Shown here: piece after piece, positions 1,760 through 60,000 of the stretch
Numbering within the stretch: the stretch's first letter is position 1
How the letters are laid out: each line of letters opens with the position of its first letter
Source of the DNA: Sphaerolaimus hirsutus
Taxonomy: Eukaryota > Nematoda > Chromadorea > Monhysterida > Sphaerolaimidae
Direction of reading: 5' to 3'
NCBI GenBank assembly: GCA_964036195.1
Contig: OZ038450.1
Location: 3,164,701-3,228,700, forward strand
DNA: 64,000 nt
The notes under the pieces: model-generated
What the model was told of the DNA's origin: nothing
The model's database searches: none
Seen by the model: the letters and a program-made list of their open reading frames with translations, nothing else
Translations under genes and position numbers: made by a program

Positions 1760-4700
1760 GTCGCACTGCCTTCTTTCCAGGTTGCAGCTGAAGCCCTCAT
1801 GGCAGCAATGTCTTAAGTCATCGCAGCATTCCGCATTTGTATATTGGCAGCAGTTATACTCTACTGGCACCTGGGAAAATTTTATAGATAAACATTTACC
1901 GTAATTCTTCAAATAATACACCCGGCCTTGGGGGGGGATTTTTTTCGTTCAGGATGTGAATTTTTTTCAAAAGTGGTTCCTGGTTCATCCTTGACGGGAG
2001 GGGGGGGGGAATAAACTGAGTATTTACAGCAGTACAATATTGGAAATGATGCAGCTACTTTCCACATTTGTTTATATCTATTTAGTTTTACAACTTTGCA
2101 GGCGCAGGGGGGGGTACGTGGGGATTCAATATATACCGTAAATCCTCGAACCGTATATACCCAGGGGAGTTACTATATCGTCAGAAGTTTTGGAAGGGGG
2201 AGTTATTCAAGGAGGGGGGGGTATTCAAGGTTATTTTTTCCTTAGAACTTTTACTTAATTCATTGTATAAATCAACTCATATAATCCAGGTATGTAATTG
2301 TTCAACAACAACAAAAACAAGATAAATAAACACCTTCCCGGTCAGGTCCGGCACCCTATTTTTGATTTCACTCCGGGTGCCCTAAATCCCGCTGAAAAGC
2401 TAAAAATGGAGTATAAAGCTGAAAATGGGGGGTATACACTTGCAACCCCCCTCTACGCTGCATCAATGGGAGAGGCCACGGCGACCCGCTACAGGGTGGG
2501 TCGCCGTATACGCAAAGTTTTTTTTTGGCTTTTTGAGTGTCCCGCACAGGTCCGGCACCCACTTTATTTTGCGACACTTCGGATGCCGTACCTCCAGCTG
2601 TGGGGGTGATAAAGAGCTGCAATTTGGGGGGAGTATAAACAACACCCTCCCCTATTATACCCCCTCAGGGCGGCCTCCGGCAACTCACTAAATTCCCGGT
2701 TGCCGCGGTTCAATTTTATTTCATTGAAAAAATAAACCGTCCCATCGGGTCCGTCACTGGTTTCTGGTTCAAAAATGAACACAGTTGTGTAGAAAATGCG
2801 CGATTAATGTGAAATAAAGCGATTAAAGATGCAATTTGATACACGTATCCAAGTTGCAAAATGTACCATGCATATCCAAAACTAATTTTATTTTAAAAGT
2901 TGAAAAATCGCTCGCTTCGCAGGGTCTCTTTTCGAGCAATTTCGTTTCATCAAAAAAATAGTGGATGACAAATAATTCACTTTTTGGAACTTTTTTATTA
3001 GACACTTGAAGAGCTGGTTTACGATACTTTAAAGGGAAGGGTTTGATGATTAAAGTTATGTGAAGAACCATACCTCTAAAATGCCTGCATTGCAAAATTT
3101 ACTTGGGGGGGAATTTTATGACACCATAATGACATCATTTCAGGAACAAAAATTTACAAAATTTACACTTTGAAATTCCCCCCAAGTAAATTTTGCAATG
3201 CAGGCGTGTTAGAGGTGTGGTTCTTTACATAACTTTAATCATCAACCCCTTCACTTTAAAGTATTGTAAACCAGCTTTTCAAGTGTTTAATAAAAAAGTT
3301 CCAAAAAGTGAATTATTTGTCATCCATCTATTGGGTGGTCATGTTTTTTTAGAGAATAAAAAAATAGTTTAGAAATTTTTCACATAAATCTCACATTTTT
3401 GAATAGTGTATAGTAGGGGAGGGGTGTTGGTAACACATCCCCAAAATTTTTGATTCATAGCCCTCCCACAGCTAAAAAATCAGTGGGTGCCGGACCTGTG
3501 AGGGACACCAGAAAAGCCAATAAAATTTTTGTACTTATGGCGATCCACCCTCTAAAGGGGTCGCCGCGACCCCCCAAATTCATGCGAAGTAGAGGGGGGT
3601 TCCGTCAATATTTCCCCCAAGTTTCAGCTTCTGGCGCACCATAGAACTGGAGATAGAATGTCACAAGTGTCATCAAAAATTGGGTGCCGGACGTGACCGG
3701 GAAGGTGTTTACAAACAAGAAACAAGAACATTCAAATACACAGTGTGGATACACATATCAAATACCCAGAGGGGGAGTTATTCAAGGGGGGAGTGATTCA
3801 AAGGGGGGGGGGGTATTTTTTCCTCACCTGGCTAACAGGGCGGAGTTATTCAAACGGGGTGTTATCCGAGGGGGTCTTATTCAAGGCTTTTAGAAGTGTA
3901 GAAGGAAGAAAACGGAGGAAAATCACTAAAATGCATTGATATGAAAAATATTGAAGTTCGCCATAACATTCATCACACTACAACGTCTACAACGGATGGA
4001 TCTGTGGATCTGTAATTAGTGACACATTTCTTGATGACAAATTGTAGAACTGTATATTTACCTATCTGTAGATTATCTTACACAATTTTATGGTGAATTT
4101 CATTTCAGTTATTAAAAAAACGTTTCAATGCATTTTTTCGTTTCGCTGCAACTAGGGTGTCAAAAAAAATTGTTTACGGAAAACGGAAAATGGAAAGGTA
4201 AAATTTTTTCACTTTACGGAAAACGTAAAACAGAAAGGTAAAAAAAATTTCTGCCGGAAAACAGAAAGGTAAAAAAATTTCACTCAGCGGAAAATAGAAA
4301 ACGGAAAGGTAAACAAAATTATCGGCCGGAAAATGGAAAACGGATACCGTATTTCCTCGAAATACCCCCCGGGGGGTGATTGTTTCATAGTGGTCCCGAG
4401 AGGGGGGGGGGTTAAACGAGGGGGGGGTATTTCGAGGGGGGGTTATTATTTCACAAGAAAATTTTTGAAAATTAAGTACGAAATTGTCGTCTGAAACGTA
4501 CGCAGACGTCGAAAAATGCAACAAAAACCGCCATTTATAAGGTTCTTCAGACTAATATTAGTACGTAGATGGTATAAACACTGTTCTAACGTGATTCCGA
4601 CATTGTTTTAACATGTGTTCTGCACTACGCAGAACACAAACTGCAGTATTTGTCATGTACGTTCTCTTTACACTCAATTTGGGGGGGGGGGGGGGTATTT

Positions 4701-5369: not shown

Positions 5370-7274
5370 TGGGTCGGATTTGTATCAATTATCTGTGATA
5401 CACAAAGATCCATTATCTGTCGTTTACCTTGTGCTCGATTAGTCCCCCTGAGGAATTCATCTTTCGTTACACGATTCGAAGGGGGAGGGGGTATTCAAGG
5501 GGAGCAATTTGTTATCGCCAAAATTTTCAACCCTCGAATAACTCCCCCTCTCGAATGAGTCCCCCCTTGTGAGTGTGAGGATAAAATAACTCCCCCCTTC
5601 GAATACCCCCCCCCACTTTGATGGATAGAAAACATTTCACAACATTTCACATTTACACAAAAAGGTTTTATGTATTTCATCTGTAAATATCTGTTTTATG
5701 TTGCAGCTAGAGTTCACTAACATTGATTTCACTGCTTGAATTGTGAATTTTGTATTCCTACAAATGATTTATGTTACCAAATTTACCCCATTTGTGCAGT
5801 AAATATACATTCTACTGAAAATACTGACGAAAAAAACTCCCCTCGAATAACTCCCCCCTCTCGGTAAATAACAAAACCTGGCAGTAAAATTCCCGAACAA
5901 CCGTTCTTGTTACGTGAACGGCTAAAGTAATTTCTATTCAACATGGTATTAACAACGCTATTTTTCACCAACAGGAATTAACGGTGCGTGACCTGGGGCC
6001 AGTTCCGCAAAATGAGAAGTGAGAAGTGAAATGGCAAAGGCGAAGTGAAACGGCAAGTGAATTGGCAAAAGCGAAGTAAAAAAATAATTTAAAAAAGTAA
6101 TTTCTCTTCGCTTTTGGCATTTCACTTGCCAATTCACTAGCCGTTTCACTTGGCCTTTGCGCTTTTACTTCGCCTTTGCCATTTCACTTCTCACTTCTCA
6201 TTTTGCGGAACTGGCACCGGGAGTAACACGTGGACACGCTCTGGTGACGCGGCAATGGCCGTGACTTGGTCCATGTGATCGAGCCGGGTCCATAGAAGTT
6301 TTTGGGGTTAGCATTTTGAGGGGGGGGGGGTCCTACCCCTGGCACGTGTTAATAACTCGGGAACCGCTTGGCGAAAAATGTTGAAATTTAAATATATTAT
6401 GGTTTCAGGTCGGGGCTCTCTCAGATTTCGACGATTTTTTTCTACGACTTCCCAGTCCGGAGATAGGGTGGGTCTATAAAAACACTGTCATTTGCGTTTT
6501 TTTGGGTGTCGCCGAGAACATGCAAACTTTGAACATCAATATCTCGGTCATTTGTGAACCGATTTTAGTCATTAAAATGTTAAAATGATCACAAATGTTC
6601 GGAGAGTTCATTTCTGAGGTCAAATCGGAGATACACATTTGTTTATATATCGATTTGGCCGGATTTCGAAATGCGAAATTTACGGAAAAGTTTTCTTTTC
6701 GAACATGCTATCGTATACTCCTGATCGAGAGAAACTCAATGAAACAAAAATGAGATCGATATCTCTTTCCGATCAAAAGTTATGGCGCTTCAAACTTTTC
6801 CCTCCCATCCACATAAATAACCACATGCATGCAACTTCAAAACTCCATATCTCGGCCATTTCTCAGCCGATTTTCACTGATGAACCCTTTAAATGATCAG
6901 AATAACATGGAGATATCGTTTTTATTCACAGTCTATTTGTATGCATTTTCATTATGACAATTTAATTCAAGAGTTCGCATTAATTTCTCGTATGGGAAAT
7001 CTGCTGAAATATACAGGTAATCTGGTACTAACAACGATATCTCCATGTCATTCTGATCATTTTAAGTGTCCATAATGGATGCTTTAGTCCTTTTAGTTAC
7101 TGTGGTCTGAGCTAAAACCGAGCACAGCTGCATGTAGGAATTGCCGGCGTTTATTTTCTGTAGGTTTTTTTTTTAAATAAAACGATTTTTGGAGAAAAAA
7201 CGCAAGCATCGAACCGAAGCCGTGTTTTGAAAAAAACGGCAGCCGGAACTTTTGATACTTTTATATTCACTATG
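5370..7274. other. Intergenic, repeat-derived
   Basis: 5450-5870 holds G/C-run sequence related to the TTGCTTGAATA elements. 6892-7070 has an inverted repeat around ACATGGAGATATCG. Nothing protein-like was seen, although promoter sequence for the granulin gene would lie here. Confidence 0.4.
5998..6215. mobile_element. Foldback element, GGCCAGTTCCGCAA variant
   Basis: Ends GGGGCCAGTTCCGCAAAATG and CATTTTGCGGAACTGGCACC. The interior is built from GAAGTGAAATGGCAAA words and their complement. Termini resemble the CWG family but the interior does not. Confidence 0.55.
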
Positions 7275-16214: not shown

Positions 16215-16414
16215 NNNNNNNNNNNNNNNNNNNNNNNNNNNNNNNNNNNNNNNNNNNNNNNNNNNNNNNNNNNNNNNNNNNNNNNNNNNNNNNNNNNNNN
16301 NNNNNNNNNNNNNNNNNNNNNNNNNNNNNNNNNNNNNNNNNNNNNNNNNNNNNNNNNNNNNNNNNNNNNNNNNNNNNNNNNNNNNNNNNNNNNNNNNNNN
16401 NNNNNNNNNNNNNN
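16215..16414. other. Assembly gap (200 N) inside an ANKRD13 exon
   Basis: Exactly 200 undetermined bases. The right edge cuts ANKRD13 exon 6 just after the codons for SGGGLTG. The left flank (16048-16214) shows no ANKRD13 coding sequence in any frame, so the true gap may be larger than 200 or the join may be wrong. Confidence 0.97.
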
Positions 16415-19400
16415 AACCGGTGAGCCCACCGCCCGACTGCTTGCACAATTCGAACTGGATGCGGTTCACGTCGACGTAGGTGCACGCGACCGGCGCCGAC
16501 AGACGAGCCGATAACTCGGCCGCGGTGGGAGTGGGCGGAGTTACCACCTGAATGGGGGCGGGGCTTGAGTTGAATTGGACACGTGTTATTGTGGTGAATT
16601 TTTGTATTGCCCGGGCAAAACTTTGGCCGCAGGGCAGGGGCCTTCTAGATTTCGACCCTCCGGGGAGTTGGATAGATAGCAAATCGCTCCTCCGGAGGGA
16701 TTGATGGAAAATCATCTGGGGGTTGGGGGGGTTCGCGGGGGTTCTATATGTAGACATAGAAGGAAGAAAAGGGAGATAAATCGCTAAAAGTAAATGAGAA
16801 ATGGATATATAAGCACATATACTACTAAAAATAGCTGAAAATAGGCGGTTGAACGCATGAACTAGTGATTTTGGAGGTGAAAATCCATAGAAAGGTATAA
16901 AAAAATAGCGATTTTGAGCGAAAAATTGGGACTTGTTTCTCAAAAATCGCCCCAGATATGTAGATAGCTGGCCGATTTGGGGGGGCGGGGTAGGGGATAG
17001 TAGCCCAAAATTTTGCCTCCGGTATAGACAAATAGTTGAGCGGCGTCTGAGATAGATAGATAGCTGGGCGGATTGGGGAGGGGGTAACGCCCTCTTTCTT
17101 ACCCCTGTTCGACCGGGCACATTAGATAAATGTTAATAATAGATCAAATAAAAAATCCATTTTGACCGCTTTTTTGTTTATAGTAACACAAAAAAACACA
17201 AGAGCAACATACCTCGTCTGGAAGATCCGGTGCCAAACTTTCGCGCATCACGGTTTTCTCGCCGTGGTCCAACACGCACAGTTCTGGTGAGCCATCTGGT
17301 AAAGTTACAATTCACGCATCACCAAACGATCTCCCGACATGTTCAAAGATTGTGGGACTTGGATGAATTTTATATTTTTTTATTAAACCATTTAACATTT
17401 GATTTTTTTTTTGAACAAAATAGTTTTTAAGTGCCACGAACGGTATAATATTAACTATGCTCTATCACACAGGACATTAACCAAAATTCAGTTGATTTAG
17501 TTGGCACGAATTTTGATGTCAACTAGTGTGTTTGGGCCAACCCAATATAAAAAGATGAAAATCAATCCAGCCAAATCGATTCATTTCCAATAGATCTACA
17601 CCAAAATCAAACCCTCCACATTCCACCAACCACAAATCCCCAATCTAACCATCATGGACAAGAAAAAGATAAGTCAATCTCGTCGCAGTGCCCTGTTCCA
17701 TTTCGCCGCCGGCACTTGGCATCTGGCCAGCGCTAAGTGATGACAAATTCGCATCTACGCGCACAGCCCCGCCTCGCTTGTAAATCTGTAGAAAGTGTGT
17801 AGAAAGGTGGTTTTTGTACACTGTTTAGTTTACCGCTTTGGCCTGATTTTATCGACTTTTAAAAAAGCTTTGGGGATTGGCAAAATCGAACATTGTAGGG
17901 TTCAGATGAAGAAGTAGTGAATTTACTGGGGGTGGAAGAGCGGGTACGCCAAAATTTGCCATTTTCACGGTTTTCTAGTGATAAATAAATGTAAAAAAGT
18001 AAATTTATGTATAAGCAAAAATGCATATAAGGGAAAGCGGGCGGAATGGTAGCAATGCAACGAAAGTGGGCTTAAAACGTCCATGAAATTTGCAATCTGA
18101 GTATGAAAATCAATTCAAAATAATCAGAATAGCGTACACAAGAACAGAGATAGCTGTGAAGGGGGTTCAAAATGACAAACTTTGTAAGAATCGCTGGGGC
18201 ACATGCGGCTAACAAATGGCAACCAACTACGAAATTCCCATTTCATTTCCACGTAGAAATCGGCCGTTTCCTGCGACAAGAAATAACTGACATGTCAATT
18301 ATTATTTTCATGCTTATCTCTGACGATTTTACGGTTGACAATATCGCGAACAAATTATACTGAGATCAACTGGTCAGAGTTGACGCTATAAAAAGTGTGC
18401 CACCGTATTTATGAAAAAGTCGCTTGAAAAATTATGCAACAAATTGACGCATTGTGAGAGAGGTGTATTTTTAGGAAAAATTAATTTTTGGGGTTTTTAT
18501 CCAGGTGATCCATGCTATATTTCAGATTTCATTGTAAAGTGATATTATACCAAAGCCAAATCGCACACTGTACAGCACCATGTCGCAGTGATTTGTCAAG
18601 TGTCAAATTTTCAATCACTTGACAAGGTGCGGAACCGTTTCCTCAAAACGCCAATTCTATTTAAAAAAATCTGAAAAAACATCACCCAAACAACCTTCAA
18701 CCTATCCAACAGGCCAGTCAAACTTCTCTGATGCTGGGCGCGTCTCTGCAGCGCTCTGTGCTGCAAAACCAAACGCAATAAATCAGGAGGGCACTCCCAG
18801 ATCCCGTAAAATGCCCTGTAAAATGTGCAAAAAATTTACAAGGGAACCAGACTTACACTCTAATTTGAACCCGTTGGGTGACTTTTACAGCCACTTCATA
18901 AGAAAATTATCAGAACTGGCAAAGTTCCAAAAAGTTGAAAATTGAAATTGTGTGAAGGTACTCGGAGCGCCTATGAGCGTTTTCGGGAAATATTAGATGC
19001 GCCAAAAAAATTCAGAAGTAAGCCCGGGTCTGTTGTCTATAATGTTGCAAATGTAGTTTGCCATTTTTACACTTTACATGACATTTTACATTTTACAGGG
19101 TCTGGGACTGGCACCTGGGTCGCCGGTGGCCGTCGCTTCGTGGGCGCAGCTCCAAAAATCGCACTCGACATTTACATCGGCACCGTGGGATAGCTGCGGG
19201 ATTTGGGGGTTTATTTGAGTTTCAGAGTTGATTTTAAACTGGCGTTTGTATGGTAGTTTAAGAGGAAAAGTTTCTCACGCAGATGCAATATTGCACTTCG
19301 CATTTCCGGAGCTGGAATAGTGCCAAAAAATCAAAATATCGCACAACAAGTTATCCATCATCCTTCCAACTTTCTCAAACGCTACCCAAAAGCACAATTT

Positions 19401-26300: not shown

Positions 26301-29300
26301 TGAATCGCAGTATCTGGTTAACTGGTCAGAACAAGAGGGGCAAGGCACTGGGTCTGTGATAGTAAATACACCTGATTAAGTTTGAAACCACTCAGACAAC
26401 CAGGGGGCAGTCCCAGGCTCTGTAAATTGAGACCCTGTAAAATGTCATGTGCAAGGATGTACGCAAGGGGGGCGGGGGGAGGCGCCCCCCCCCCCCCGTT
26501 CCCGGGCCGGTCATGAAAGTTTGCCAGGAATGGCACTTTTGTAAAGCGATTTTGCAGGTACTTCGAAAAAATTTTCAAGAGGTAAAAGTAACCCATTTAA
26601 GTAAAATTTGGATACAAAATAAAATATTTGGATATGTGACAATAAGATTTGGATGCACATGACATTTTACAGTATGTTTTACATGATATTTGACACTTTA
26701 CAGGGTTTTTTTACATGACGCATGACATTTAACATGGTCTTTTAAATCTTACAGTGTCTTTTACAGGGTCTGGGACTGGCACCAGGATAGGAGGAAGACA
26801 AACCAGGCGGCAATGTGGCAAAACACTGTGAACAAAGCACTCTGCCATACTTCGCATATAGCAAAGACACAAAGGGGGTGTCCCTGATGACAAGTGCTCC
26901 GGCTGGCAAATCTGCACCAGCAACCAAGTATCTGCCAGCCTGGGGGTACTGCCAGACCCTGTAAAATGCCCTGTAAGATGTCAAATGTCATGCAAAGTGT
27001 CAAAAGTTATGGAAAATGCCCTGCAAAATGGCAAACGTACATCTGCCATTTTGCAGGGCATTTTCCATGACTTTAGACACTTTGCATGACATTTGACACT
27101 TTACAGGGCATTTTACAGGGTCTGGGAGTGGCACCTGTTTGCTGTATGCCACTTTGACACTTGCTGACATGTTGGGGTGCTGTTTGCTGGGTCCACCATG
27201 CAACGGCTGTCTTTGTGGTGACGGTTTGTCAGCGCTTGTGACTGTCACTTTGCTGTTGTGTACGCATCCGTTTTGGTCTAGTGATTGTGACTGTGAGCTA
27301 TTGGATTGAGATGAAGTGTCTTCCATTGCGGCTGTAAATTGTGGTTTTTAGGTTTTTAGTTTATGGTACAATTGATGTCCTTATACTGAAACTGAAGTCT
27401 ACCATCGTTTTTGGATTTATTGGTTGTGGTTTCAAAGTTCAACCATTCAATCGTGTTTTACAAATGGATCGTGGACAATTCAATCGTGTTTTCGTGTTCA
27501 TTGAATATTTTACTAATTGAATGGTTCTGTTGCCGTTGTCTGAGATTCGGTAAACGCGCGCCGCTCGGTGAGTAAATAAATATATTATTTACCCCGGGGA
27601 AAATTAGAATTTTACAAACGCTAAATGTTCAGGGAATGCGAAAAATGTGTTTTATGCCAAAAGCGTCTTTTACCCACAAATACATAAATCTCTACAAAAA
27701 TAAAAATATTTTTTGTAGCATCAGATCGATGTAAAATAGCATTTCACGAAATCAGTCTTGAATTTTTCCACAATTTCGAAAAAAATGCCTATCCCAAAAT
27801 GTACCTTTTGCCAGAGTCGCCTGATGTCTTCTATCTGTCCATTTTTTCCGCAAATTTTCCGCAAGCGGTTCCGGGTACCCGGCGATCGCCCTTTCAAGAT
27901 CCCTAACTGCCGCCTCATAAAAGTTCACTTTCTGCTCATCGGAATTCGCCGTGCGAATATTTTCACTGTTTTGTCCGATTGAATCCTTTCTGCATAATTC
28001 GTCCATCAAAGTGTGAATATTTTCTTGTGCCATTCTAAAGAACACCGCCGATCTATTCCCATATGCGAGTGATAGTTCAGCTGATTGTGTCTCCGCATGC
28101 CATATAGCAATTTCGTAATGACCGAGCGCCGCCTGCGTGACGTACGGATGTCTTCAAAAATAATTTAGCCCGTAATTATACCCCACTGCTGGATGCGCAC
28201 TCAAGGACGTACACAGCATTTTTGATCGGGGGGGGATTGTATACGGGCCCGGCAAACGAGGAGACGGCCCCCCCCCCTAAAATGTGGCCCTATATCAAAA
28301 GAATGGAGCCATGGCGGTGGCGCCATTTGTAGGCGCAAGCGCCATGGCATGGCAGTATTGACGTTGGCGTTGGCGTTGGCGCCATCGTCTACCATAGGGA
28401 TATCTATTTATACCTATATATAGTACATACTAGGACCATGTTGGGCACTTTTGTAATTCTGTTTAGACTCCTGAAAATACACATTAAACAGTGGGGTGGG
28501 GATTTGCGCTAAGAAGAAATCAACCATACATGCACTACATTGCTCTCACGATGTGGCCACACAGCATTTAGTTAGCGGTGTAACTTCGAAAACTGATAAA
28601 GCCTTTTTATCATTTCTGAGTTAACCAGAATGAATCATTTTTATCTCATTCAACAGTCGAGTAAATTTGTCCAATTCTGATTTATCAGCTGACTCATGAA
28701 ATATAGTGTGTGTGGGCTGTGATTAGCATTGAAAAAATCTCTGCCAGATTTATATTTAAAAATCTCAGAGAATCTCAGAAAAATATAATATTTCCTGATA
28801 TTCATACTTTTTTCACGATTTTACAGAGAGATTTAATTTAATTTTATTTATGAGAGATTTTCAGAGATTTTTAAAATATCAGAAAATCTCTCAAATTATG
28901 ATATATTTATATATATTTTTCCCAGGTTTTTTGAGAGTGATTATATTTTATTCTGGAGGGATTTTCTGAGATTATATTTACCTAATTATATGTATTTTCC
29001 AAAAATTTATGATATTTTTCAATGCTAGCTGTGATGTGTAATTATTATTTTGCACCTGCCTTTATTTATCAAAATACGATGACACTCTTTGACTAGTGTT
29101 CAGTCGGATAATTTTTATATTTTTATAATATTTTGTTTATTTTAATTGTATCTTATCGAACATTGGAAATAAAAACAGAGTTACACAAGTCTTTTTGCAA
29201 CAAAAAAACAACAACTCAAAACACAGTTACTCATTTTTTGAAAAACTCAAAACTCATTTTCTTCAAAGTCTCACTCATCATCAAACAAGCCAAACCAACA

Positions 29301-41109: not shown

Positions 41110-44100
41110 ATGGATGTGCTGATTCAACTAATATCTATAGTGTTGCGTGGATTAATGCTGGGCATACTGGGCGCCATTGTCGCATTGCAAATATTCGGGG
41201 GCTGTTGGGGCAGAAAAAAGTCAGGTGAATGATTAAAAAGTCCAAATTTTGTCGATTTCTTTTTAATGTACCGTATAATACATATTTATGTTATCGGCGG
41301 CATCTGATGTTCACGTTTGTCACAGTATTGAATAAACGCTGATTTCTGAAAATGATTAAAATTCTGATACTATTTATAGCGCAATTGATACACCTGTCGC
41401 CGACATATTATTTCACAAGACTTACCTAGGTATTACCTAAGTTTATTGCAGTCATTGTTATTGCAGCTGAGAAGTCTAGCTGTTTGAGAACTTTATTTTT
41501 CGTCGTGAATGTAGAAAGTGACCCACATATTCTTAAGAAATGCTTACCTATCAGGAGAAAAACGAGTGTGGTCATTCTGACATACAGGGTGCGGCAATTT
41601 AGACCTGCCCTCTAGATTTCGAATAACTTGTCACTGGGTAATCGGATAAATGTCAAATTTGAAGTCAACATTAACAACTAAATAGGAAAGGATCCCTGAA
41701 AAAACGGCTGCGATAGCTCCACTCGTTGACAAGTTATTCACGCGAACGCGTAATTGTCACTTTTCCACCACCTTGTGATATCGTTCAAACGAGATTGACT
41801 TCTCGGGACCGGGATCTGGAATCTGGATCGGATTGTTTTTTGCAGGGTTTTTTTCTGATTTTCTTTTCGCAGCTGCATGCGCAAATGCGTGCACGCCCGC
41901 CACCAATTCGCTATGCCCATAAGGAAATCGGTAGGCGCTTGCGTAATTGGTCGTAAAGCTAGGAGGTGGAAACGTGACAATTACACGTTTCCATGAATAA
42001 CTTGAGAACGAGTGGAGCTATCACATCCATATCTTCAGGGATCCTTTCCTATTTAGTTGTTAATGTTGACCTCAAATATTACATTTATCCGACCACCCAA
42101 TGACAAGTTATTCGAAATCTAGAGCGCAGGTCTAAATTGCCGCACCCTGTATATTGTGCACTTTAGCAGGTTGTGGAAACTGACAAGCACAAAGGTGAAA
42201 CTGAAATTGAAAACTTGTAAGTGACTTCAAAAAAGTCCAGTACTTTAACAACTCTGCTGGCGCTATCCCGCTCAACAGTTATATATTGCAAAAATGCACT
42301 GTGCAAGCTGTAATTGTACTTTGTATACCCTGGAAATCGACGAACGAACGACGAATTCTAACAGAATCTGTCCCAACGGCGCAGATCATGACTCTAAAAC
42401 GAAAAACACGGCAACGAGAACATCGACGGGCACTGGCAGCGGTGCTGGAGTGCCTCCAATAACGACAAATGTCAGGTTTGTTTCTGGTAAAATTGAGCCT
42501 AATGCTGCGATTACAGCTCTGGCATAAAATTGACCACGGCATAAAATTGACCGTAAAATTGATTTTGGGCGTAAAATTAACTACATATGAATGGATAAAG
42601 ATACGACATTGTTATTTCAGTCAAAGAAAGCTTAGATGCAGACGTTTCTTGTGTCCAAAGCTCATGAGTTTACTTTAATCGTACTGTGAGTTATGATTTT
42701 TAGCACAATTTTGTCAATTATGCGCTGTAAGTTGCGTAAAATTGGGGCGTAAAATTAAAAAAAAATTTGTCCCAAAATTCATAACTTCTATAATGTACAA
42801 TTAAAATAAACTGATGAGCTTTGGACACAAGCAACATCAGCATGTGCGCTTTCTTTGACTGAAATTATAGCGCCAAATCCATTCACCTGTGATTAATTTT
42901 ACGCCAAAAATTCAATTTTACGCCCAGTCAATTTTACGCCAGGGCTGTAATCGCGGCGTTACTGAGTAAAGAAAAGTTCACGAGAAAGTTAAATTATGCC
43001 AATGGCGCCATGGATGTCAGAAGCGCTATGGTGTTTTGTGGACCACAGCAACACGATGGTCCCATGCGCTATTGATTGTCGTTATTGGCGCATTTTGGCG
43101 CCATAAAAAGCTGGCGTCAGGCGTTAATAACGCCACCAGAATTAGTTTTGGCGCTAGCGCCAGGGCTATGGCACTATAAATATTATATAACTAGTCCTCA
43201 CCCAAATCCAGAAAACGGTGTAAACTCTATTATTATTGACTGATCTTAGGTGCCTATTATACGCAACGGATATTTTACGTGCCTAATGGGCACCTAGAAG
43301 GTATTTTAACTAAGTGCAGCACAAGCACCATAACAAAAAAAAACACAATAAAAATCCCGGCAGTCAAGCGCCATCGCGGGTCACGTCGCGTTTCTCATCT
43401 CACTCGGAGTTTCCCGGTGGGCCGGCGCCCGTGCCCGGCGCGCTGGGCATCAACAAAGACAGACAGGGCGTGGACAATAGAGTTGTTAAAAGTACCCAAC
43501 TTTTTTTTAAGAGTATACGTAAACGTAAAGTACCTAGGTATTTATTTTTTACTCACCCACTGAGTACAGAAAGAGTTAAGTTTTTTTTTACTTTGCTCAA
43601 GAATAAATTAGAGTAAAATAAACACCTTCCCGGTCACGTCCGGCACCCTATTTTTGATGACACTTGTGACATCCTATCTCCAGTTCTATGGTGCGCCAGA
43701 AGCTGAAACTTGGGGGAAATATTGACGGAACCCCCCTCTACTTCGCATAAATTTGGGGGGTCGCGGCGACCCCTTTAGAGGGTGGGTCGCCATAAGTACA
43801 AAATTTTTATTGGCTTTTCTGGTGTCCCTCACAGGTCCGGCACCCACTGATTTTTTAGCTGTGGGAGGGCTATAAATCTAAAATTTTGGGGATGTGTTAC
43901 CAACACCCCTCCCCTACTATACACTATTCAAAAATGTGAGATTAATGTGAAAAAATTCTAAAATTTTCTCTTATTCTCTAAAAAACATGACCACCCAATA
44001 GATGGATGACAAATAATTCACTTTTTGGAACTTTTTTATCAGACACTTGCAAAGCTGGTTTACAATACTTTAAAGTGAAGGGGTTGATGATTGAAGTTAT

Positions 44101-45464
44101 GTAAAGAACCACACCTCTAAAACGCCTGCATTGCAAAATTTACTTGGGGGGAATTTCAAAGTGTAAATTTTGTAAATTTTTGTTCCTGAAATGATGTCAT
44201 TATGGTGTCATAAAATTCCCCCTAAGTAAATTTTGCAATGCAGGAATTTTAGAGGTATGGTTCTTTACATAACTTTAATCATCTAACCCTTCCGTTTAAA
44301 GTATCATAAACCAGCTCTTCAAGTGTCTAATAAAAAAGTTCCAAAAACTGAATTGTTTGTCATCCATCTATTGGGTGGTCATGTCAATGGGACAGTCGAT
44401 TTTTTCAATGAAACGAAATCGCTCGAAAAGAGACCCTGCAAAGCAAGCGATTTTTCAACTTGTAAAATAAAATACGTGTATCCAATTGCATCTTTAATCG
44501 CTTTATTTCACATTAATCGCGCATTTTCTACACTAGTGTTCATTTTTGAACCAGAAACCAGTGACGGACCCGATGGGACATTTTTTTTCAATGAAATGAA
44601 ATTGAGCCGCGGCAACCGGGAATTTAGTGAGTCGCCGGAGGCCGCCCTGAGGGGGTATAGTAGGAGAGGGTGTTGTCTATACTCCCCCCAAATTGCAGCT
44701 CTTTATCACCCCCACAGCTGGAGGTATGGCATCCGAAGTGTCGCAAAATAAAGTGGCTGCCGGACCTGTGTGGGACACTCAAAAAGCCAAAAAAAAAACT
44801 TTGCGTATACGGCAACCCACCCAGTAGCGGGTCGCCGTGGCTTACCCCATTGATGCAGCGTAGAGGGGGGTTGCAAGTATATACCCCCCATTTTCAGCTT
44901 TCTACTCCGCCTGCAGCGGGAGTTGGGGCACCCGAAGTGAAATCAAAAATAGGGTGCCGGACCTGACCGGGAAGGTGTTTACGTTGTTTTCCAGAGAGAG
45001 TTAATGCGAGTATTTTTTTCTCTCAGGAAAGCGTAAAAAACGAGTGAAATTACTTTTTCTTGCTGGAAAATGTAGGATGAATGTGTTTTCATTATGATGA
45101 AGCATTATGAATGTTTACACTAGACAACAAAAATGTGTTTTCATTCTTTATGAATGAAGTAGGTATTCTTTATGAAAAGCAGGGCTCGAATCTCAAAAAT
45201 ACTATTTCTGTACTCACAAAAATTACTCTACTCTACTCTCAAAAAGTAAGCGTACGGGCGAGTACAGATACTTTTTCAAAGTATGCATATGCGTATTTAC
45301 TCGGTACTCAAAAAGCGTACTTTTTGAGTAAAAGTAAATACTCATCAACAACTGTGGTGGACAAACAGCAAGGCAACGAGGATAACGTAGCCGCCGTGGT
45401 AGTGCAGCCAGCCGCCGTGGTTCAACCGGTCGCGGCGGTTCAACCGATCCCGGCGCAGGCGTGA
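41110..45464 (+). CDS. Unrecognised single-pass membrane protein, exon 3 split by a hAT MITE
   Basis: Exon 1 is 41110-41219, exon 2 is 42365-42475, exon 3 is 43364-43477 and resumes at 45365-45464 after a 1.9-kb transposon. Phases agree (2, 2). Exon 1 gives a signal-anchor or signal peptide (LISIVLRGLMLGILGAIVAL) followed by a juxtamembrane CWGRKK. The rest is Ser/Thr/Gly/Pro-rich: TRTSTGTGSGAGVPPITT, then FPGGPAPVPGALGINKDRQG, then a Gln/Val/Pro repeat (VVVQPAAVVQPVAAVQP). No enzyme domain is visible. Donors are GTCAGG and GTTTGT; acceptors are TCTAACAG and CCCGGCAG. After the transposon the frame continues to TGA at 45462, but a GTGAGA donor at 45461 could instead extend the gene to 46.2 kb. 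Joining of exons 1 and 2 is the weakest step. Function is unknown. Confidence 0.45.
41585..42149. mobile_element. mariner-like foldback, CAGGGTGCGGCAATTTAGAC ends
   Basis: Flanked by TA at 41583-41584 and 42150-42151. Arms of about 170 bp pair well (TTTCGAATAACTTGTCA). TA target and CAGGG end fit Tc1/mariner MITEs. Lies in intron 1 of the membrane-protein gene. Confidence 0.65.
42508..42953. mobile_element. Foldback with GCGTAAAATTGAC words
   Basis: Ends CGATTACAGCTCTGGC and GCCAGGGCTGTAATCG. Arms about 200 bp. Lies in intron 2 of the membrane-protein gene. Confidence 0.65.
43478..45356. mobile_element. hAT MITE inserted in a coding exon
   Basis: Perfect 8-bp duplication GTGGACAA at 43470-43477 and 45357-45364. 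TIR TAGAGTTGTT / CACAGTTGTT. Removing the element and one duplication joins ...GTG GAC AA to A CAG CAA and keeps the frame of the membrane-protein gene. Confidence 0.8.
43619..44981. mobile_element. Two-lobed large foldback element, inverted copy, nested
   Basis: Near-full copy of 2327-3711 in the opposite orientation, nested in the hAT MITE 43478-45356. Confidence 0.65.
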
Positions 45465-48002: not shown

Positions 48003-51000
48003 TCAAATCTTAGTTTCGGGTCCGTCTGTGCTTAGGGCGTCGCGCAGCCGGCCCACGTGCCTGGCGCAAATATGTCCGAATACTCGATTGTACCACGCTT
48101 TGCCGCGGCCCCTGCGATTTTTGTTTGTTTGTTTAGAGCGATTTAAAACGAGCGACAAAAAAACTAGATAAAATTTGAAAAATAGATACTGAATAGTCCG
48201 CGTGGATGGCAGAATTTTTTTTACTATATTTTGATGAATGTGGACAACTGCGGGACAAATCTATTGTGATGTGAAAAACATATTTAAGACCTAGAGCTTT
48301 CCTTTATCATTGATGTCGTATATATGGTATGTTACTGTAAATCGTGCATGTAACTGTAAATGTACTCAAAATCCCAATTAAAACAACCGCCCTCAATTAA
48401 TTATCTCAAGCATCAACCCAAAGTAAATACAACCCCCAACAAACTTAGTATCCAATCTGGCCACGTAATTCAGTCTAGAAGCATTTGGGCCCCTGTACTC
48501 AATAAGGTATCTAGCCGCCAAACAATTTCCCCTGACTCCGCCCACCAAGGGAGCATCCCCGTGCGACACCGACGTTTCCACGAGGATAGCAGAGCCTGTG
48601 AGATTAGGTATACTCCGGTTACTTTACACCCTGCACGCGTGGTTCCCGCTGGGAGTGTGCCAACGATGGTTAACGCGTCCGAGTTTCATAAAAAGATGAC
48701 AAAATTGATTGTTGTTATAATGTCATTCATTAACATATTTACATCGATGAATTTTTTTCATACTTTTACGAAAATCGCATGATTTAATAATCATTGGCAC
48801 GCTTCCAACACGAGACATAAATCAGTGCGAGGGCAGAGTATCATGTACGCAGAGTATAGTTGTTTTTTTTGTTGGATGGGTACTGTTTGTTTGGATATTG
48901 AGTAAAATTGGGGAGTCGGTGACAGTCGATTTCTCAACAACAATACTTGTCACTTGATTCTATATGAATAACTTTACTTTCCACTTTTATCGACACTTTC
49001 CCATTTTCAGAATTCGTGCCAGGGGCCAGTTCCGCAAATTGAGAAGTAAAATGGCAAATGCGATGTGAAATGGCAAAAGCATAGAGAAGTTGCTTTTTAT
49101 TTTATATTCATTTTACTTCACTTTTGCCAATTTATTTTCCATTTTACTTAACTTTTGTCATTTCACTTCGGTTGTGCCGTTTTACTTCTCACTTCTCAAT
49201 TTGCAGAACGTGAACCAGGCGAAGTGAATTGGCAAGTGAAATGGCAAAAGCGACGAGAAATTACTTTTTATATTTATTTTTTACTTCGCTTCTGCCGATT
49301 CATTTGCGGTTTCACTTATCCTTTGCGCTTTTACTTCGCCTTTGCCATTTTACTTCTCACTTCCCATCTTGCGGAACTGGCCCCAGATGTTCGATGCAGA
49401 GCCCATCCGACAGACATTTCCCTTAAAAATCACAAAAACAGAAACTTAGCTTCAAACGCAACCACCCAAACCGCCAACCCCCCCCCCCCCCCCCGAAAAA
49501 CCCCCCCAAATCACCCCCACACGCACCCCCATTAGTCTGCTGCCAGGCATTGCCACCCCTCTTCCACAGCCTGACGACGGTGTAGTCGCGCGTGGGGTGC
49601 GGCGGCATGTCGTTCAGCACGTACTGCACCAGGTCGCAGTCGTCGGCCAGCTGCCGCACCACCGACCATTTGATCGTGTCCTCGTCCCAAGAGGAACGGT
49701 CCCTGGGAAGGAGGGGGGGGGTTCGTTTGGTGGTGAAGTGTTGAGGGTTTGTTGGATTGGTTTCGGGGCTCGATTATTACAATGATGGCAAAGAAATACT
49801 CGAAAATTCGAGTGAGAAAAAGGTTTTCGATTTTTAGGAGCTTTCGAATTTTCGAATTGAATTATTGAAAATCTTCAAAATTCAAACACCTTTCCTCTAA
49901 AAGTTTGCTAAAGTTACACAGTTTGTTTATTTTTTCTGATATTTTTTAAATATAAACCTCCCAGAGTTTCAAGGGTGACTACAGAACTGTGGGAAGTCCC
50001 AAACCCTGTAAAATATCAAATGTCAAAGTGTCAAAAGTAATGTAAAATGCCCTGTAAAACTACAATGACTTTTTACACTTTGCATGACATTTGACACTTT
50101 TCATACAGGGTGCGACACTGGCATCACCAAACCCCCCTTCCAGCCACTCACCTCAACAACGCATCGAGCACCAGGTCCACGCTGGCGGGCATGTCGACGG
50201 TGGCGCGCCACATCTTGGCAGGGTGCTCGTCGGACGCGACCTTCTTGCTGGACAGCTCGACGCTGTGCCGCCAGCCGCGGCCCTCGGTGCACCACCGCCG
50301 CCAGTCGTCGCGCTGTTCCTGTGGGGGGGAGGGGTTGTTTGAGGTTTTTGGATCTTTAAAAAATAGGATCTCAATATAATTCCTATATAATATAACTGAT
50401 AACTTGATATTTCATAGGCACCTAATTATGACCATGTTTATAATGAAGAATGCTCCGGTGCCAGTCCCAGAGCCTGTAAAATGCCCTGCAAAATGCCAAC
50501 TCGGTTGCCATTTTGCAGTGCATTTTACATGACTTTTGACACTGCATGACAGTTCACGTTTACAGGGTCCGGGACTGCCCACCCCCGATGATAAAAGGAC
50601 GGTTAAAAAACAATTTTCCGCACAAACCCACTACCCCACGACTCAGCCTCTGAACCTAACCAACCTTAGTCAACGCCTGCACGCACTGTTCCAAGTAGGT
50701 TCTGTAGGTTCCCCTGACCGCGGCGCCCAACTCGTGGAGGGTGGGAGGTTCCGATCGCAATACATCCACCAGCGCGTTGCCATACCGCTCCCTGAGTGTC
50801 AAGGTGGTGTTGTAAATTTGACATAGGCGTACTAGTATTATAAACCCACTAGTCATGTAGACCCGCTAGTCATGTATTTTAGGGGGATAAGCCCGGCACA
50901 GGTGATTAGCGGTAGCGGGTTTGCATGATTAGTAGAGTGCATAGTGCACACGCACTATGTACTTTACTAATCGTGTAAGACAGCTGCCGCTAATCCCCTG

Positions 51001-57000: not shown

Positions 57001-60000
57001 AACATAAACCCGCCCAGTAACCCGACCGCAAAACCGACCGTCTTTCTGCCCGATGCCAGCAGCTGCGAGTTGGCGATGCTGCTGTCTGCCGTAGTGCTGC
57101 TGCGGCGGCATGTCGGCGTCGTTGTCGCCGTCGCGCGAGCCCAGCGAGCGCGACAACGAGTGCCGCGACCCGTCTAGCGAACGGCTCTCCACCCGTCTGG
57201 GCAGTGCATGTTTTTTTGTTAAATTGATTTTTTTGTGATGGTGGAAAAGGAATAGAAAGAGGGCTACATTTTTATTTTTGGTGTTATTTTATTTTTGAGC
57301 CTCCTCTGAGGGCAGTCCCGCGCACTGTAAAATGCCCGATGAAAGGAAAAAACATTTTTTGCCGAACACTTGACATTTTACAGGGTGCGGGGCCTAGTAC
57401 CATGGAAAATCATTGTTGGTAAAAATAGGGCAGGGTTGTAGCAAATTCTAGCGCCAAAAATCTTCAAAAAATCACATCGTCCCAACAATTCCACAGACAG
57501 CCGCACGAACCTATTCAAATCGACCTCCACCCTGGGCACGTGTTGTTGCTGGGGCACCCTCCTGCCCCTGGGGCCCCTCTGTCCGTGGGGGGCCATCTGC
57601 GCCGGGCCCCCACCCAATTTGGCGTCAATGTCCGTCTGCAAATCGTTCACTTCTCGCTCGAAATCCTCCGCCAATCTGCTCCAAGTGCGGGAGTTCCTTT
57701 CGAAGCGCCAACGGCGGGACAGGGCTACATCTGGACACGCGTCGTCCTCGTCCGATGAAGAGTGACAGGGGGGTCCAGATGGGGGGTGCGGGGGTGCCGC
57801 CTGGGGGTACAGGGATTTTGACCTAATTTGGGGGTATTGTGAAGAGTGTGGCCTGGTGGGAATTCAGTGAGTGGACAGGTGACAAGAAAAAAGGGGAGGT
57901 GATAAGTGAAGTCATAAATGGGAAGCCAACTAGCAAGTAAATATAAATGTGGGAAGTATTTCCATTTACAACTTCACTTTTAACTGGTCACTTGACTCAG
58001 CACTTAGAACTTTACGTAACACCACTTACCACATTTCTTGTCACGTGTCCACACTGCAATTGCCCCCCCCCCTGTTGATGTCAAAAATGTTGAGGTGGAA
58101 TAAAAAAGTTAAAACACATGTAAAAACCTCAGGCTTTATGATAGTATCCAAAGATCTGTCAAAAACCGCGTTTCCATTATATCAAATCTATCCCAAAGCC
58201 ACACAAAAAAACCCTCAAAAACCCAACAAACCTCTCCATTGGCCCTCCCCCTACCGCCACCTCCCCCTACATTCTGCCCTACGCCTCCATTTTGCTGGCG
58301 CTGACTCATTGGGTTCGCCCGGTTCAATGAATGCAACCTTCTAAAAAGAGCCTCCAAGGAGTCACTGTCGAGAAATGAGTGGTCCCTCGCGGCCGCAGTG
58401 ATGTCTATTGGAAGGCGGGAATCTGTGGGGGGGGGTTGTTTGAGGGTGGCAATTTGGGGGGTTATGGTAGGAGCATGGTACCAGTCTCAGACTCTGTAAA
58501 ATGGCTTGTGAAATTTCAAATTTCATGCAGTGTCAAAAGCCATGTAAAATGCCCTGGAAAATGGTACACCAATTCGTCATTTTCTAAGGCCCAGTTTACA
58601 CGGATTTTTTGTGATGACTCGACAACAATAAAACGTTCAATAAGTTGAGTAAAAAGGTTCCATATTCATTAGACCCCGTTTACACGGATTTTTTGTGATG
58701 ACTCGACAAAAATAAAACGTTCAATAAGTTGAGTAAAAATGTTCCATATTTATGAGAAAAAGTGGTCAATTATACATCTTATTTACCTAGGCGAATATGC
58801 ATGTCAAATTGCACAATCGTGCTTGTAGCTCATGAGTTAAAGGTGTTTGAAAACTTTTGCAGTTGTCAGACTGTTGTAGGACTGTCTCCGACAGCCAGCG
58901 ACAATAGCAAACTTTTTTCGAACGTGATAAATGTTAATGCAGATAATAAATATGCAGGCCAAATTGCAGACTCGTGCTATAGCTCAACATTTATAACGTT
59001 CAAAAAAAGTTTGCTATTGTCGCTGGCTGTCGGAGACAGTCCGACAACAGTCTGACAACTGCAAAAGTTTTCAAACGCCTTTAACTCATGAGCTACAAGC
59101 ACGATTGTGCAATTTGACATGCATATTCGCCTAGGTAAGATGTATAATTGACCACTTTTTCTCATAAATGTGGAACATTTTTACTCAACTTATTGAACGT
59201 TTTATTTTTGTCGAGTCGTCACAAAAAATCCGTGTAAACGGGGTCTAAGGCATTTTACATAACTTTTGACACTTTGCATGACATTTTACAGGGCATTTTA
59301 CAGGATATAGGATTACCCATCGCTGGAAGATAAAATGGTGGATTTCATTGGATTCAGTCTATACTTTTTTCAGTGGCAAGTGCAGTTGGCGTGGAAAGGA
59401 AAAAATGTGTTCCAATGTAAAGTTCTAATAAATTTAAAATAAATAAACAGTGAACCTAAATAGGGATAGGGACACTGTTAATAGGTTTCTGTACCGCAGG
59501 TAGTAGTTGATAATTTGAAAGTCAGTCATATAATACTTTGATAAAGCTTTTTCTATACATTTTTACCACTGACGTCATTCCATCAACTGTCATAACATTC
59601 AACCGTGAATTGCGGCTTTCATCAATGGAAAACAGCATACACTAATTATGCACAGCTAAGCACACATCGCTTTTTAAGTGATGGAAAAAACAGTTCAATG
59701 TGAGTTTTTATTTTTGTCACTCAGTACGACATTCGAAAATTCCGTCGGAAAGTTGTCAGTCTACATAGCATTTGAAATCCGAAATTTGTCACTTGACAGA
59801 AATCTGAAACGTTGCAGAGCAAATGGTGTGGCGCTGTTTTAGCTTCTCAAATGGCGCCAGCGCCATTCCTACGTGCTACGTGACCAGTTCTTTTTACATA
59901 AGTGAGCTATATATAAAGCTTGTCGTGGCCAGCACTTACATAAAAGTATTATTCCCATCTAAAACTCCAACAAGATAAAGAAAGTACGTCATTAAGCCAT

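Follow-up and report, generated by a model that had tools for sequence, protein, structure and literature searches.

How new introns originate is a long-standing question, and introners have very rarely been reported from animals. The introns of the larvacean Fritillaria borealis reportedly derive from MITEs. These introns are the nearest animal parallel to those described below and often carry the same kind of three-nucleotide word ahead of the 5′ splice site and as their final three bases (YAY there, CWG here); however, they are mostly of non-GT/AG types (AG/AC, AG/AT) and are accompanied by a changed U2AF, whereas the present elements provide a GT donor and an AG or TG end (PMC13326754). 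A survey of 3,325 genomes detected introners in 175 of them and, among animals and land plants, in only two groups, both of them animals (Gozashti 2022, PMC9860276). There, as here, a repeated element creates an intron by insertion into an exon, and many of the elements have inverted repeats and are flanked by short duplications of the target. One type (Fig. 2C of that survey) carries one splice site in the element and takes the other from the duplication, as found here, although it is shown there without inverted repeats. Compared to the introners of PMC9860276, the present family combines an animal host, a CWG target in which only CAG supplies an AG acceptor, an element that is one hairpin over its whole length, and two unequal ends. 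The introner elements of the dinoflagellate Amoebophrya are similar in being hairpin introns with direct repeats of 3-5 nt at their ends; there, the elements are defined among non-canonical introns (PMC7789003).

The target words resemble those of NuwaI, a member of the PHIS superfamily with CWG target duplications and inverted repeats usually beginning with GGG, which has been reported from animals only (PMC4482050). The CWG duplication is common to both, whereas the GGG start corresponds here to mostly GGGGC at one end and GTGCC at the other, and the repeats described in PMC4482050 measure 12-61 bp, compared to 91-nt arms here. The likeness lies in the target and the GGG end, with no transposase linked to the family. 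Introners and the supply of one splice site by the duplication are already known, and the CWG duplications and a change from CTG to CAG appear to be new; neither of the latter was found for any introner in the literature searched, mostly outside subscription papers.

Here we analysed a window of 64,000 nucleotides (C1:3164701-3228700) in the genome of Sphaerolaimus hirsutus (348 Mb, 762 contigs), together with copies of the same element elsewhere in that genome. We propose, with a probability of roughly 0.87, that a non-autonomous transposon that is a full-length hairpin and targets CWG words inserts into exons and would form ready-made introns there, intron 2 of a SMYD4-like gene among them. 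A single animal genome with thousands of copies offers a built-in contrast between CAG insertions, which bring an acceptor, and CTG insertions, which do not. On the exon side the duplication would preserve the word first targeted, and on the intron side the fate of that word, making the formation of a 3′ splice site traceable for each copy.

Intron 2 of the SMYD4-like gene coincides with one foldback element

Read on the minus strand, the sequence ...AGCAAACAG|GTGCCACTCCCAGACCC...GTCTGGCAGTACCCC-CAG|GCTGGCAGATAC represents exon, intron 2 and exon of the SMYD4-like gene (Table 1). The intron of 195 nt comprises a 192-nt element and the right copy of a duplicated CAG, giving the boundaries exon CAG|GTGCC...CCCC-CAG|exon, in which the GT comes from the element and the AG from the right CAG copy. 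It begins and ends as a U2-type GT-AG intron does. An earlier note on this DNA had described the intron as exactly one foldback that owes its GT to the element and its AG to the duplicated CAG; the coordinates proved exact, with both ends at element or duplication ends, and the minus-strand sequence bears out the source of both dinucleotides. The two arms adjoin without a spacer and are 92% complementary, and the RNA of intron 2 folds into a single hairpin of -146 kcal/mol, with a z of -24 relative to 200 dinucleotide-shuffled sequences. Alignment with a family consensus, built from 49 copies of 180-196 bp including the SMYD4 copy, revealed identity in 180 of 192 columns.

Retention of the intron introduces in-frame stops, and joining of the exons gives the frame AYSKQAGRYLVAG. 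Exon-intron ends, in this gene and in the others, were assigned from protein homology. Nine frame-keeping GT/AG pairs lie within 30 nt of the two ends, so in principle other ends could also be chosen; the terminal pair alone adds or removes nothing. The joined protein aligns with SMYD1 without a gap at the junction in a weak match (phmmer, E 0.042), and a Pfam zf-MYND domain follows downstream in the gene (E 1.2e-5).

Table 1. Features of the SMYD4-like locus and further copies of the element in the window
Feature	Position	Strand	Remark
SMYD4-like intron 2	26940..27134	-	Phase 0, GT..AG; made up of the element and the right CAG copy
Foldback element	26943..27134	-	192 bp, GTGCC...ACCCC
Two 91-nt arms of the element (26948-27038, 27039-27129)	26948..27129	-	92% complementary
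Left CAG duplication copy	27135..27137	-	Exon end
Right CAG duplication copy	26940..26942	-	Source of the AG acceptor
Upstream SMYD4-like exon (..VAYSKQ)	27135..27331	-	5′ boundary inferred
Downstream SMYD4-like exon (AGRYLVAGADLPAG..SSSYP)	26783..26939	-	
Second copy, opening SMYD4-like intron 3	26404..26782	-	379 bp, CTG/CTG
Third copy, interrupting the ANKRD13-like gene	18784..19114	-	Left CAG, right CTG

Besides the SMYD4-like gene, the window carries an ANKRD13-like gene, a RhoGAP/START protein and a granulin domain, the domains being identified by profile search; this gene content resembles that of an animal. The copy that opens intron 3 of the SMYD4-like gene does not extend to the inferred acceptor, whose AG has its last base at 26354, 47 bases past the right duplication. 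This intron is not an exact introner because its inferred acceptor lies outside the copy, which probably landed at the edge of a pre-existing intron. The copy in the ANKRD13-like gene has no AG at its end, and Ank_2 aligns across the interruption (Pfam). An assembly gap of 200 N (16215-16414) falls in the region of the same gene.

A family of thousands of copies with CWG target duplications

Genome-wide, 26-mers from the GTGCC end have 341 + 336 exact matches, compared to 0 for the reversed control. A count of exact 5′ ends across all 348 Mb yielded 1291 occurrences of CAG|GTGCC (660+631) and 1106 of CTG|GTGCC (548+558), again with 0 for the reversed patterns; the family copy number is in the thousands. 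A genome-wide search for ends beside CAG, which had been suggested as a check, returned abundant sites, and coding insertions in conserved genes as well. The expected CAG target stands at SMYD4, where CAG is duplicated, and gives way at the level of the family to CWG, nearly half of it CTG. Among 71 elements from 5-kb loci and the window, 39 have the same word on both sides (23 CAG, 16 CTG; 41 elements with two duplicates, tallied without L025 and L036), and the flanks of the remaining ones are mixed, mutated or attributable to misread ends. The copies closest to the SMYD4 one measure 188-196 bp, with others shorter or longer. The two ends are unequal, GTGCC at the donor end and mostly GGGGC at the other, a point on which the earlier note is corrected. 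The SMYD4 element is more than a chance arrangement: thousands of sites in the genome share its sequence, its ends and its type of duplication, and further conserved genes carry such copies at exact junctions.

Scans of viral contigs and of a plasmid collection revealed no match to the end pattern. The genome contains 163 matches to DDE_Tnp_4 (PHIS-type, PIF/Harbinger-type), many of them near-equal in score, which suggests one recently active family. Two of these 163 loci, L049 and L050, were fetched as candidates for an autonomous partner, which for a NuwaI transposon would encode a DDE transposase and a Myb/SANT protein, and were rejected, the ends of the present family being absent from both.

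Insertions in other conserved genes

For further copies, the element and one duplication copy were deleted in silico, and the resulting junction was translated and scanned against Pfam. Of the frames scanned, 13 among the 55 in sense orientation and none among the 25 in antisense orientation gave alignments that extend across the junction (p 0.007), the frames being picked by eye and the sense ones often chosen for already resembling known genes, so that 13/55 is not a rate and the contrast between orientations is biased. These junctions lie in CNOT1, SLC26, an M13 peptidase, OSCP1 (two sites), an Srx-type GPCR, a cyclin, Rcd1/CNOT9 (E 1e-63), a sugar transporter, a lipase, a carnitine acyltransferase, the C-terminus of a P-type ATPase and a chondroitin GalNAc-transferase. 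Not counted among the 13 are a glycosyltransferase (L106), which falls below the Pfam cut-off and whose alignment begins 5 residues ahead of the junction, and profile matches (C1, Cation_ATPase, PI-PLC-Y) that end before it. Comparison with PDB sequences showed that the CNOT9 junction aligns over 120/120 residues without a gap, and that the UNC13 junction and the best match of the Na/K-ATPase junction are also ungapped. The alignment across the junction of a PLC copy (L127) is weak and gapped (E 2.9e-5), and L026 found no homology support across its junction in the Pfam and PDB sequence searches.

In several genes the ends of the repeated element are the inferred intron ends, and the ungapped junction homology of CNOT9 and UNC13 points to insertion into contiguous coding sequence. 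The introner reading of the earlier note gains support from this recurrence in other conserved genes, and exonic copies are probably spliced out as new introns, as judged from the conserved proteins encoded on their flanks.

Copies for a list-order sample were taken from the hit lists of contig C1 (40 CAG-left and 40 CTG-left, omitting copies already fetched or in the window); removal of 6 without a recognisable 3′ end and 5 duplicates (L069, L070, L112, L129, L130) reduced these 80 to 69. At least 9 of the 69 are supported by homology (L080, L091, L093, L095, L099, L102, L104, L121, L124), a lower bound, the scan having covered a selection of the frames. On C1, P-type ATPase coding sequence is interrupted by a copy at L095 (CTG/CAG) and again, about 5.6 kb away, at L121 (CAG/CAG); the order of the two stretches suggests two adjacent genes. 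Some antisense copies have their CAG on the opposite strand and lie in coding-looking frames devoid of Pfam support (L028:2408-2597, L011:1563-1727, L092); for these, GTAAAATG inside the element could act as the donor.

CAG is favored on the acceptor side

At the acceptor end, CAG outnumbers CTG genome-wide by 1277 to 884 (p 3e-17), a stronger bias than the 1291:1106 of the donor end (difference p 4e-4). The excess of 393 copies leads, as a rough estimate, to perhaps hundreds of copies that serve as introns; part of it could be an insertion preference. Within the 69 copies, 9 of the 36 with a left CTG have CAG on the right, and 1 of the 33 with a left CAG has CTG on the right (p 0.014). Elements outside the 69, selected in other ways than by list order, are not lopsided (4 left CTG/right CAG against 2 of the reverse, or 3 with the ANKRD13 copy), and pooling of all elements gives 13 against 3 (p 0.02). 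Homology-supported genes hold 4 of the 9 CTG/CAG copies (chondroitin transferase L080, cyclin L093, ATPase L095 and lipase L104), 3 of 21 CTG/CTG and 2 of 28 CAG/CAG copies, that is, 4/9 CTG/CAG compared to 5/60 others (p 0.013). A CTG...CAG pair reads identically on both strands, so its AG is available to either orientation. In the cyclin and ATPase copies, the exon CTG encodes a conserved leucine; CTG was therefore probably the original target word and the intron-side copy the one that mutated.

Median palindromy descends from 0.83 in CTG/CTG through 0.775 in CAG/CAG to 0.70 in CTG/CAG copies (p 0.003 between the extremes), a gradient that fits young CTG/CTG and old CTG/CAG copies. The CTG/CAG copies are also longer (6/9 over 250 bp, compared to 2/21 CTG/CTG) and may belong to another subfamily.

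The CTG/CTG copies and the ANKRD13 copy do not have GT-AG termini, and CTG/CTG copies interrupt conserved genes, namely CNOT9, the sugar transporter, the GPCR and OSCP1. Such copies are either spliced as GT-TG introns, or spliced at an internal site, or damaging alleles. An internal AG in the OSCP1 copy would add 15 residues in frame, and the shortest AG-using pair found in the CNOT9 copy would add 14. A codon-usage test scored coding-like sense flanks at 13/31 copies with a 3′ CTG and 15/42 with a 3′ CAG, showing no shortage at 3′ CTG, and a stricter test of frame agreement scored 5/31 and 13/42, favoring 3′ CAG; neither serves as proof, since flanks that are coding give scores on either strand and a mismatched-flank control is high (sense 0.13-0.32 by settings).

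Proposed mechanism and alternatives

We propose that a non-autonomous hairpin DNA transposon, NuwaI/PHIS-like by its target and its GGG end, would insert into CWG words. After a sense insertion in an exon, GTGCC would act as the 5′ splice site right behind the left-hand CWG, and the CWG copy on the right would become the last three bases of the intron and close it. A CAG target would yield a GT-AG intron at once and leave the protein unchanged, as suggested for SMYD4 intron 2. With a CTG target the intron would initially end in TG, its intron-side copy being free to mutate; a T to A change in this copy would create a canonical acceptor while the exon copy remained CTG, a pattern that is observed and for which selection is presumed. 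Nearly half of the insertions would initially have no AG, the target being CWG and not CAG alone.

Use of an internal donor, CCT|GTAAAA, situated 18 nt inside the element, in place of the terminal GT would leave six additional residues in the protein. This GT is in frame and stop-free in SMYD4 and the phase-0 copies examined, and its presence in both arms could serve antisense copies that have CAG on the coding strand. Such a donor predicts no effect of orientation, yet CAG is favored beside the GCCCC end, the homology-supported junctions are all sense (among picked frames), and CNOT9, otherwise aligned without a gap, would receive six residues; we regard this donor as unlikely. That an older SMYD4 intron was later filled or replaced by a foldback is very improbable: the neighboring intron 3, a copy followed by 47 more bases to an ordinary acceptor, offers a precedent, whereas in intron 2 no remnant is visible, both ends are those of the element or its duplication, and other genes show boundaries that are just as exact. 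Excision of exonic copies from the DNA of somatic cells, in the manner of internal eliminated sequences, would account for a precise removal that is needed even where AG is absent, as in the CTG/CTG copies of CNOT9 and OSCP1. It should, however, ignore gene orientation and not favor AG at one end, and we know of no such system for animal exons; we consider it very improbable.

The CTG/CTG copies in conserved genes might be spliced as GT-TG introns, CNOT9 being an example, aided by a hairpin that juxtaposes their ends, and later gain AG by T to A in the intron-side copy, a course to which we give somewhat less than even odds. If true, it would mean that introns are born through a non-AG stage that can be traced copy by copy in one animal genome. 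It is also conceivable, with only slightly lower odds, that the CTG/CTG copies are young damaging or heterozygous insertions and not introns, in line with their palindromy, the highest of the three classes, and hence their probable youth. Against this stand their location in genes such as CNOT9 and the sense orientation of all four homology-supported copies (CNOT9, sugar transporter, GPCR, OSCP1).

Other foldbacks in the window

A related foldback family (GGGCCAGTTCCGCAA..) is represented at 49023-49383 by a copy whose GGGCC ends are symmetric and whose duplication is CAG, and at 5996-6217 by a further copy with unequal ends. Several more large foldbacks, at 58669-59248, 43985-44384, 2957-3332 and 42500-42961, measure about 370-590 bp and are 71-92% self-complementary.
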